Positions 42,652 to 58,933 of a stretch of 64,000 bases of DNA are shown piece by piece (position 1 is the stretch's first letter; the number at the start of each line of letters is the position of its first letter). Below the pieces are notes generated by a model. That model was not told where the DNA came from and searched no databases. It saw nothing but the letters and a program-made list of their open reading frames with translations. The DNA is from Meridianimaribacter flavus (GTDB lineage: Bacteria; Bacteroidota; Bacteroidia; Flavobacteriales; Flavobacteriaceae): NCBI RefSeq assembly GCF_004366715.1, contig NZ_SOQZ01000004.1:1-64000 (forward strand). The letters are read 5' to 3'. The translations under genes and the position numbers were made by a program.

Positions 42652-42819
42652 AAAAAAAGCCTACATCAGTTGAGCATTTTGTATAAACTCCTTAAAAACA
42701 AGTTTAGGGCTAACAAGCTGATCAAGGATCCATTCAAAGATGGCTTGCTTTTACAACTTAAACTCACCCTTTTTAAAGAATTAACGTTGAGTTTATCAAA
42801 AAAAATAACTAATGTAGGC
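42652..42819 (-). ncRNA. ssrS: 6S RNA candidate (6S-Flavo-like)
   Basis: Read on the minus strand, 5'-gcctacattagtt (42819-42807) pairs over 13 positions (one G-U) with aactgatgtaggc (42671-42659), followed at once by T7 (42658-42652). Inside, ataaactc pairs with gagtttat, gagttta with taaactt and agcaagc with gcttgtt, giving a rod with a closing stem, central bubble and terminal stem, total about 168 bases. That is the 6S RNA design, which mimics an open promoter and binds RNA polymerase holoenzyme. The gene lies just downstream of zapA, as ssrS does in Escherichia coli. Structure is seen; identity is inferred. Confidence 0.78.
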
Positions 42820-55997: not shown

Positions 55998-57242
55998 TTA
56001 GTTTTCAAATTGTTTTAATGTCTTTGTTATAATTGACACACAGTCTAACAGTTGCTCCTTATTCATTACTAAAGGTGGTGCAAATCTAATAATATTACCA
56101 TGTGTTGGTTTAGCTAAAAGACCATTATCTCTTAATGCCAAACAAATGTTCCAAGCTGTATCGCTATCTTCATCATCATTTATAACAATAGCATTTAGCA
56201 ATCCTTTTCCTCTAACTAAATTAACGGTAGAACTTGTTGCAATGTATTTATTCATTTCCTCACGGAATAATTGTCCTAATGTTTCAGCATTTTCAGCTAG
56301 CTGCTCGTCTTTAACCACTTCTAAAGCAGCAATAGCAACAGCAGCAGCAACAGGATTACCACCAAAAGTACTTCCGTGGTTTCCTGGTTTAATCACATTC
56401 ATAATGTTATCGTTTGCTAACACAGCCGAAACAGGATAAGCACCTCCAGATAATGCTTTACCAAGAATTAACACATCTGGTTTTACATTTTCATGGTCAA
56501 CAGCTAACAACTTTCCTGTTCTAGCAATACCAGTTTGCACTTCGTCTGCAATAAAAAGTACACCATGGGCTTCACATAACGCCTTTGCTTTGGCTAAATA
56601 CCCTTCACTTGGCACATAAACTCCTGCCTCTCCTTGTATTGGCTCAACCATAAAACCTGCTACGTTAGGATTGTTTTTTAAAGCAGTTTCTAAAGCTTCT
56701 AGATTATCGTATTCAATTTTTATAAACCCTTTAGTGTAAGGTCCAAAGTTTTTACGTGCTACAGGATCGTTACTAAACGAGATAATTGTAGTTGTTCTTC
56801 CATGGAAATTGTTTTCGCAAACAATAATTTCAGCATCGTTTTCAGAAATACCTTTTACTTCATAAGCCCATTTTCTACAAAGCTTTAAAGCCGTTTCAAC
56901 AGCTTCAGCTCCTGTATTCATTGGTAATAATTTATCAAACCCAAACATTTCAGTTGCAAACTGCTCATACTTTCCTAGCATATCGTTATAAAATGCTCTA
57001 GAAGTTAAGGTTAATGTTTTTGCTTGCGATACCATAGCATCTACAATTTTTGGGTGACAATGTCCTTGGTTAACTGCTGAGTAAGCCGATAAAAAATCAT
57101 AATATTGCTTCCCTTCTACATCCCAAACATGGACACCTTCTCCTCTACTCAACACTACAGGTAACGGATGGTAATTGTGTGCACCATACTTGTTTTCTAA
57201 ATCTATCGCTTGTTGCGATGTTAATTGGTCTAAAACAGCCAT
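55998..57242 (-). CDS. rocD: Ornithine-oxo-acid transaminase
   Basis: 414 residues. Class III PLP aminotransferase with [12 protein letters not shown]-type N-terminus (here [21 protein letters not shown]), [16 protein letters not shown], the [15 protein letters not shown] segment, [17 protein letters not shown] and the Schiff-base Lys in [17 protein letters not shown]. It converts ornithine and a 2-oxoacid to glutamate semialdehyde and glutamate in arginine/proline metabolism. The 240 bases upstream hold a strongly structured region (57279-57402) that could be its leader. Confidence 0.96.
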
Positions 57243-57278
57243 TTTAAAAAAATTTTAATTGTGAAAAAATAACCATTC

Positions 57279-57402
57279 CTGCTCTACCTTTATTCTTTCA
57301 TAAGCGTTGCGCAACCATTTTTGAAGTTATGGTGACGCTTAGAAAAAGCAGCGTGGGAGAGAAATCATCCCTAGAGGATGTAAATTTAGTAATTTCTGCA
57401 CG
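57279..57402 (-). ncRNA. Structured RNA candidate between rocD and rlmD
   Basis: Two compound hairpins abut. Hairpin A (57279-57351): ctgct/agcag, then tttc/gaaa, taagcgt/acgctta and accat/atggt with bulges. Hairpin B (57352-57402): cgtg/cacg, agaaat/atttct and catcc/ggatg with a 5-base loop and an 11-base bulge. On the minus strand this would be the 5' leader of rocD, ending about 35 bases before its ATG. The rlmD -7 box lies outside it. No known riboswitch motif is recognised. Strand and function are inferred. Confidence 0.4.
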
Positions 57403-57481: not shown

Positions 57482-58933
57482 ATGGCAAGACGAGAACGCA
57501 ATAAGTTTGTAAAACGTGGCGAAACGATAGACATCTTAATAGAAGATTATGCCTTTGGTGGTAAAGGTATAGGACGTATTAGAAATGAACATGGTGAGTT
57601 TGTTGTTTTTGTGCCTAATACTTTACCTGGTCAGTTAGTTAAAGCTCAGGTTAAAAAATCGAGTAAAAAATATGCCGAGTGTAAGTTGCTTGATGTTTTA
57701 AAACCTTCTGAAGATGAAGTAGAAACTCCTTATCAAGATATTCCTGGTGCACCTTATATTCAGCTTCCAATAGACAAACAGCACGACTATAAAACGCAAA
57801 GTACATTAGAACTTTTTAAGCGTATTGGAAAAGTAAAAGATATTGAAAGCAAGTTTGATGAGTTTGTAAGTTCACCTAATACATTTCATTATCGTAATAA
57901 AATGGAATATGGCTTTTCAGCTATTGGTTATAATCGTGAAGCTAAAACTGACGTAGACGAGTTTACACTTGGGTTTAAACGTCGTGGTCTTTGGTGGTGT
58001 GGTGATAACTTAAATAGCGATTCTGGTTTATTCGATGCGCAGTTAGAAAACCACCTTAAAGACATTAGAGCATATTGCGAAAACACAGGATTAGCACCAT
58101 GGCATGCTCCTAAAAAAGAAGGGTTTTTCCGCTTTTTCGTGGTAAGAAAATCCTATAAAACCAATAAGCTGCTATTCAATTTAGTGACTACTTCTTATGA
58201 TTTAGACCAATTTGATTTAGATGCATTTGCTAACTATTTAGTAGAATTGTTTGGAGATAGAGTTGCTGGTTTATTACATACCATTAATGACGAAATTGGA
58301 GATAGAACCATTGCTACCACTGGAAGCATAAGCTTAGTTTATGGTGAAGACAAAATAGTTGAAGAACTACTAGGTCTTAATTTTGAAATTAGCATGAAAA
58401 GCTTCTTTCAAACCAACCCAAAATGTGCAGAAAAACTATACTCTAAAGTAGCTGATTATGCTTTAGAAAATAAAGACGCTATAGACAATACCGTTGTTTT
58501 AGATTTATTTTGTGGTACAGGAACCATAGGACAAATAGTTGCTAGCAAATCCAACAATGCTAAAATTGTTGGTGTAGATATTGTAGCTTCAGCCATTGCA
58601 GATGCTAAAGAAAATGCCAAACGAAACAACATTAAAGGCTTAGAATTTTATGCTGCTGATGTTGGTAAATTCTTAACCGAGCATCCTGAGTTTAAAAACA
58701 AAATAAGAACCATTATCTTAGATCCTGCTAGAGCTGGTATTGCGCCAAAAACTTTAAATAAAATAATAAACCTAGGCGCAGAACGTTTGGTTTATGTATC
58801 TTGCAATCCAGCCACACAAGCTAGAGATACTGAGCAATTAATGCAGTCAGGATATGAAATAAAAAAGCTTAGTCTTGTGGATCAGTTTCCACATACAGCA
58901 CATATTGAGACTGTGGTTTTATTTGAAAAGTAA
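57482..58933 (+). CDS. rlmD: 23S rRNA (uracil-C5)-methyltransferase, RlmD/TrmA family
   Basis: 483 residues. A TRAM domain (~8-68, VKRGETIDILIEDYAFGGKGIGRI) precedes the SAM-dependent methyltransferase domain with DLFCGTGTIGQIVA, the QTNP motif (SFFQTNPKCAE), LDPARAGI and the catalytic Cys in YVSCNPATQARD, then GYEIKKLSLVDQFPHTAHIE. These are the marks of the RumA/RlmD group methylating U1939 (or U747) of 23S rRNA. The four Fe-S Cys of E. coli RlmD are not visible at the usual place, as in many Bacteroidota members, so position specificity is uncertain. Confidence 0.92.
   Translation: MARRERNKFVKRGETIDILIEDYAFGGKGIGRIRNEHGEFVVFVPNTLPGQLVKAQVKKSSKKYAECKLLDVLKPSEDEVETPYQDIPGAPYIQLPIDKQHDYKTQSTLELFKRIGKVKDIESKFDEFVSSPNTFHYRNKMEYGFSAIGYNREAKTDVDEFTLGFKRRGLWWCGDNLNSDSGLFDAQLENHLKDIRAYCENTGLAPWHAPKKEGFFRFFVVRKSYKTNKLLFNLVTTSYDLDQFDLDAFANYLVELFGDRVAGLLHTINDEIGDRTIATTGSISLVYGEDKIVEELLGLNFEISMKSFFQTNPKCAEKLYSKVADYALENKDAIDNTVVLDLFCGTGTIGQIVASKSNNAKIVGVDIVASAIADAKENAKRNNIKGLEFYAADVGKFLTEHPEFKNKIRTIILDPARAGIAPKTLNKIINLGAERLVYVSCNPATQARDTEQLMQSGYEIKKLSLVDQFPHTAHIETVVLFEK

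Follow-up and report, generated by a model that had tools for sequence, protein, structure and literature searches.

Comparison of leader sequences across Flavobacteriaceae predicts that the rocD mRNA begins with a small H-type pseudoknot that would control rocD in cis. Its most likely role is that of a metabolite-binding riboswitch, a reading to which we assign a probability of roughly one half. The element is described here in the leader of the ornithine aminotransferase gene of Meridianimaribacter flavus, within a window of 64,000 nucleotides (the whole stretch of DNA that was analysed), and its homologs are compared across the family.

In the window the element lies between rocD and the divergent rlmD gene, at the 5′ end of the rocD leader (Table 1). 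The initial annotation had taken this region for the rocD leader on the minus strand, and the equivalog match of the adjoining reading frame bears this out. A covariance model built from the long form of the element (R1) recovers a single match in the genome of origin (E = 8.4e-14). A pattern of the form TA-N0-2-TTT[GA] is found no more than 36 nt upstream of the element at 211 of 228 loci, versus 45 in a control window, and this candidate −7 box lies most often 10-11 nt 5′ of the element; we infer that transcription of rocD begins a few nucleotides before the first stem. The spacer that leads to rocD is A/U-rich and has no obvious competing helix. A terminator search of the window leader found none 3′ of the element; its sole match, a terminator-like hairpin (CATCCTCTAGGGATG, 57380-57366 on the minus strand), overlaps the 5′ strand of S1, is present in this genome only and not conserved, and is probably due to chance. 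The only Rfam match in the window is a 6S-Flavo RNA (RF01685, 114 bits) at positions 42685-42792 of the minus strand.

Table 1. Features of the rocD leader element and its surroundings in the window (RNA letters refer to the transcribed strand).
Feature	Position	Strand	Evidence or remark
rocD, ornithine aminotransferase	55998-57242	minus	TIGR01885 (ornithine--oxo-acid transaminase) equivalog, 665.9 bits
A/T-rich spacer, element to rocD AUG	57243-57274	minus	32 nt in window; 27-35 nt in most loci
Whole conserved element, rocD leader pseudoknot (predicted), long form	57275-57371	minus	homologous leaders at >200 rocD loci
S2 3′ strand, G-C-AGGAAU, one-base bulge at 57281	57275-57282	minus	columns 52-56 invariant; bulge column free, 67 changes
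Loop 3, 72 nt in window	57283-57354	minus	few nt in minimal forms; length varies among loci
UAAAGGUA, conserved single strand	57285-57292	minus	alignments; long form only
P2 arm 3′ strand, GAAAGA, long form	57294-57299	minus	same pairing, with 57342-57347
Variable P2 arm tip, species-specific	57300-57341	minus	2 to about 45 nt in relatives
P2 arm 5′ strand, UUUUUC, long form	57342-57347	minus	98% of cells paired with 57294-57299
ACGCUG, conserved single strand	57349-57354	minus	alignments; long form only, absent from minimal forms
S1 3′ strand, UCCC (N17, C18, C19, X20)	57355-57358	minus	pair 7-17 covariation; shuffle and slide controls
S2 5′ strand, AUUUCUC (= S1 loop)	57359-57365	minus	no changes in 6 of 7 columns; C16 coupled with position 50
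Loop 1, U8 G9, invariant	57366-57367	minus	no tree changes in 228 sequences
Upstream AUG inside element	57366-57368	minus	no conserved peptide starts here; 219 loci split 78/73/68 among the frames relative to rocD
S1 5′ strand, GGGA (X4, G5, G6, N7)	57368-57371	minus	pairs with 57355-57358
Candidate Bacteroidetes-type −7 box, TAAATTTA, TAnnTTTG-like	57381-57388	minus	pattern match; about 10 nt 5′ of element
rlmD, divergent from rocD	57482-58933	plus	TIGR00479

The conserved core is predicted to be an H-type pseudoknot of two stems. The first stem (S1) has the consensus NGGN/NCCN, written X-GG-N7 / N17-CC-X′, and its loop, UGAUUUCUC, would pair as the second stem (S2, AUUUCUC / G-N-AGGAAU) with a downstream strand, GNAGGAAU, located about 31 nt before the start codon. 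The geometry fits this type of fold, with a first loop (L1) of 2 nt (UG), no nucleotides between the stems (L2) and a third loop (L3) of at least about 3 nt, which ranges from a few to about 130 nt and ends in A. Minimal forms span some 30 nt, and an additional hairpin arm in loop 3 distinguishes the long form, to which the element of the window belongs. In the long form this loop reads CACGCUG, followed by a hairpin of five or six U-A, U-G or C-G pairs with a free tip and then by UAAAGGUA. Among the long forms, positions 27-28 and 88 of alignment A1 alternate together between GCUGCU..GAAAGAAU and GCUGAA..GAAAGGAU; from the alignment, this alternation (U-A versus A.G) appears to be a coupling of non-Watson-Crick type at the foot of the P2 arm. 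At one locus (L349), a minimal-form element harbors an insertion of about 120 nt in loop 3 with both conserved halves intact.

Additional blocks occur at other rocD loci between the element and the start codon. Thirteen loci (L010, L023, L028, L041, L043, L053, L059, L061, L078, L097, L109, L110 and L149) share a conserved block of about 75 nt, absent from the window, that consists of a hairpin CTCGC..GCGAG, then ATTTAATTATTAATGTTTGC, and a second hairpin ending in AAACCTTAAATT; this block may represent either a second element or a mobile repeat. Five further loci (L040, L045, L054, L073 and L094) have a different insert at this place, with the hairpin GATATCCATTTGTTTGGATAT.

The distribution of the element was established with several searches. 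When the intergenic region was used as a DNA query, 209 of 397 Flavobacteriaceae genomes gave matches, in two blocks split by a variable gap and directly before rocD, and the leaders of the 80 nearest rocD loci, obtained through an independent protein-based search, also have the element directly before the gene. The R1 model matched 288 of the 397 genomes, once in each except for one fragmented assembly with two matches. These matches fall into two groups, about 175 with E <1e-9, which correspond to the long form, and about 110 whose E values range from 1e-5 to 0.05. In all of the strong matches that were inspected, rows with an intact rocD start lie before rocD. Nearly all of the weak group was covered by re-searching 80 genomes, whose loci were fetched or read, and proved to be the minimal form (GGAUGAUUUCUCUCC, a few nt, AAGNAGGAAU), likewise before rocD. 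Five weak matches (L228, L247, L248, L249 and L251) were discarded as noise, being neither before rocD nor proper carriers of both halves. Among 63 genomes with no R1 match, 54 have rocD, and the loci examined in unmatched genomes yielded ten diverged or longer elements that strict filters had missed (L333-L337, L340, L342, L345, L349 and L350); together with the 288 matches, these put the prevalence at no less than 298 of 397 Flavobacteriaceae genomes.

Outside the family, a search with a minimal-form model over 395 genomes across the phylum returned nothing convincing, and rocD itself is common in other families of the order. Among the leaders read, the element was encountered beyond Flavobacteriaceae in two tiny sister families only (L300-L302, GGGTGATTTCTCCCC), whose pattern matches were examined individually. 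Part of one large genus (g127) retains rocD and has lost the element; at these loci (L260-L268) the entire leader is gone, and the start codon follows the −7 box at some 20-30 nt. This distribution places the origin of the element close to the root of the family and shows that loss is possible.

Conservation and covariation were assessed on 228 distinct leaders along a tree of their rocD proteins (length 24.6), with the significance of couplings obtained by simulation along the tree, following the idea of R-scape. Of the 27 core columns, 15 are without change and two others have one change or nearly none, giving 17 columns with 0-1 changes among 228 sequences, versus 26-101 changes in flanking columns on the same tree. 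Positions 7 and 17 are paired in all 228 sequences without a mismatch (A-U in 212, G-U in 10, G-C in 5 and U-A in 1), and each of the five changes at N17 shares its branch with a compensating change at N7 (simulation mean 0.19, maximum 3; 0 of 4000 simulations). In the long forms, pair 4-20 is 97% paired and has four coincident changes (0 of 4000 simulations); in the short forms, X4-X20 is not significant alone (p 0.24). In S2, coincident changes at positions 16 and 50 occur on 12 branches, where 3000 simulations gave a null mean of 1.7 and a maximum of 6, and the composite is 97% pairable, versus 79% expected. Replacement of C16 by U goes with A in place of G50, or with U plus an adjacent A, so that pairing is kept with the bulge shifted.

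When all pairs are tested together, 16-50 and 4-20 reach E 0.003 and 7-17 E 0.16, the latter because few sequences carry a change, and the support for 7-17 is thus that of the branch-coincidence test. In paired cells and double changes, the proposed structure exceeds all shuffled and all slid controls. Five of the seven S2 pairs never vary, and the predicted stem rests mainly on one covarying pair and on fixed complementarity. RNAalifold, being blind to pseudoknots, returns only the S1 hairpin, extended by pairs 9-16 and 10-15; we favor S2 over this extension since position 16 couples with 50. An earlier S2 pair, 17-49, was dropped because variants with C17 or A17 keep A49 and position 17 covaries with 7.

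Much of this departs from the architecture originally put forward for the region. The initial annotation had described two adjoining compound hairpins with far more order than their surroundings. The single-sequence fold is in fact ordinary, with a z-score of −1.53 on the minus strand, for which 16 of 200 shuffled sequences do equally well, and −1.14 on the plus strand, and the minimum-energy helices of either strand were set aside as neither significant nor the conserved ones; with so unremarkable a fold, only comparison can decide. The comparison points to a single H-type pseudoknot in place of the two hairpins. The hairpin CATCC/GGATG, within 57372-57402, is not conserved and belongs to promoter-proximal DNA with 49-101 parsimony changes per column among relatives, and the other (57300-57341) is a variable insertion within loop 3, the free tip of the P2 arm. 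The block had also been delimited at 57279, a boundary that cuts through the S2 3′ strand (57282-57275), the conserved half. An alternative pairing of gctctacc with gggagag, offered as a hint of a switch, came near the long-range helix in the wrong register, the supported one joining AUUUCUC to G-N-AGGAAU. The underlying claim of a conserved structured RNA in the rocD leader that belongs to no known Rfam class is, on the other hand, strongly supported by conservation, by the absence of Rfam 15 matches and by covariation, which is present in relatives as the annotation had asked (pairs 7-17 and 16-50, and 4-20 in the long forms). The concern that the block might be a repetitive palindrome is removed by its single-copy occurrence in its own genome and in 287 of the 288 matched genomes.

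Several properties of the element are those expected of a riboswitch. It is a conserved structured leader tied to one metabolic gene family, and an invariant core with little covariation is typical of ligand-binding RNAs. The small size of the minimal form, for an aptamer, counts against this reading. More tentatively, we propose a new riboswitch class, among the smallest aptamers known (about 30 nt in the minimal form), that would sense ornithine or a near neighbor (arginine, proline, glutamate or pyrroline-5-carboxylate) and control ornithine aminotransferase across Flavobacteriaceae. The associated gene is always rocD alone, so no second regulon member points to the ligand. The presence of proB was considered as a guide and abandoned, as the gene is found in the genome of origin and falls below the cut-off in several element-bearing relatives.

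Under the riboswitch model, the putative ligand would come from the metabolites around ornithine, arginine, proline or glutamate, with ornithine as a first guess, and could bind at the junction of S1 and S2, where L1 (UG), an invariant U.G pair and the S2 bulge would meet. Binding would stabilize the pseudoknot and bury the purine-rich strand GNAGGAAU, which, when free, may help the 30S subunit to load about 31 nt downstream, on the A/U-rich leader; the additional loop 3 arm of the long form might buttress the fold. Against the model, no terminator follows the element, and for Shine-Dalgarno occlusion of the classical kind the S2 strand lies a long way from the start codon; such pairing is in any case hardly used by Bacteroidetes.

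The main rival to the riboswitch reading is a protein-binding operator, in which an RNA-binding protein (RocD itself as an autogenous repressor, or a ribosomal or global regulator) blocks or aids translation of rocD. Other autoregulatory mRNA pseudoknots are bound by proteins, and a short core of very high identity with few covarying pairs, located at the mRNA 5′ end before one target gene per genome, would suit such a site. Counting against it are the want of a candidate protein and the loss of the element in part of g127, where rocD stays and so does not need it. We regard as unlikely a passive role, in which a fixed 5′ pseudoknot guards the mRNA end or serves as a ribosome standby site with no sensing. 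Such a role would agree with the proximity of the element to the inferred transcript start and with an A/U-rich spacer of nearly fixed length at most loci, yet a mechanical structure would not require 17 invariant bases, and at some loci the spacer is lengthened to 50-195 nt and the element is kept.

Two further explanations are very improbable. The AUG within the element could start a MISLPR-like peptide sensing arginine or ornithine, making the leader an attenuator: AUG, or GUG or UUG, is always found at positions 7-9, and in many long forms the frame encodes MIS(L/F)PR and stops directly after the arginine codon. However, this AUG stands in random frame with respect to both the downstream half and rocD across the 219 loci, the peptide ranges in length from five codons to no stop at all, the variable codons alter the residue (CTC to TTC, CCC or CAC) while synonymous sites are fixed, and changes at position 7 have their counterpart at position 17; these features largely refute a conserved leader peptide. 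An operator at the DNA level, to which a transcription factor would bind immediately after the promoter, is comparably hard to sustain: the element directly follows the −7 box, but its wobble pairs, the G-U to G-C compensation and the insertion of up to 120 nt between its halves (L349) fit an RNA and not a DNA site. Finally, chance or mere kinship of the rocD-rlmD intergenic regions, suggested by the adjacency of rlmD at 104 of the 175 loci with enough upstream DNA, is refuted by the persistence of the element at the other 71 and by an unchanged core whose flanks accumulate 26-101 changes on the same tree.

The element constitutes a well-supported orphan regulatory RNA class in a family, Flavobacteriaceae, that is dominant in marine and freshwater settings, and its link is to a single enzyme where arginine, proline and glutamate metabolism cross. 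Its natural minimal and long forms illustrate how an aptamer-like pseudoknot gains an accessory arm, and it bears on the control of translation by mRNA structure in bacteria that hardly use Shine-Dalgarno pairing. Should the proposal of an ornithine-type riboswitch hold, a small aptamer class would control ornithine aminotransferase family-wide and would be, to our knowledge, the first riboswitch for the ornithine/arginine/proline/glutamate branch in bacteria.

Searches of Rfam 15 at gathering cut-offs, among them the models for preQ1, SAM-II, Flavo-1 and T-box, gave no match in the window leader or in ten further loci; the best result of a relaxed scan, carA at 17.4 bits versus the 100 needed, was dismissed as chance. 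In the open literature, to which the search was directed, we found no paper naming the element or its core sequence. The preQ1-I and preQ1-II riboswitches are likewise small H-type pseudoknots at the mRNA 5′ end with a purine-rich S2 strand, and preQ1-II has an extra loop 3 hairpin like that of the long form; they differ in conserved bases and in gene, and the S2 strand of the rocD element lies about 31 nt from the start codon. SAM-II is also an H-type pseudoknot leader RNA, with translational control, but has another sequence and serves methionine metabolism instead of rocD.

The closest published analogue in theme is the odc1 (uORF-25-1) motif of Alphaproteobacteria, a leader pseudoknot of ornithine decarboxylase that shares with our element an ornithine-metabolism gene and an upstream start codon (PMC8632094). 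That motif comprises a large hairpin P1, a sequestered ribosome-binding site and a strictly conserved 11-residue peptide, whose uORF lies by definition two nucleotides from the main start codon (PMC8632094). The rocD element, of a different lineage and fold, has neither P1 nor a sequestered ribosome-binding site or conserved peptide, and its upstream AUG, in random frame, is separated from the rocD AUG by about 57-200 nt. Within Flavobacteriaceae, a survey of Flavobacterium psychrophilum reported 64 structured 5′ regions that, like our element, have no Rfam match, several of them conserved across genera; its main text names neither rocD nor ornithine (PMC9723704). As described in that main text, the flavobacterial Rfam motif Flavo-1 has no assigned function and occurs indistinctly in sense or antisense (PMC9723704); it is unlike the rocD element in not preceding one particular gene, and does not match the window or the ten further loci. 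On these comparisons, we rate the rocD element as a new family among leader pseudoknot regulators.
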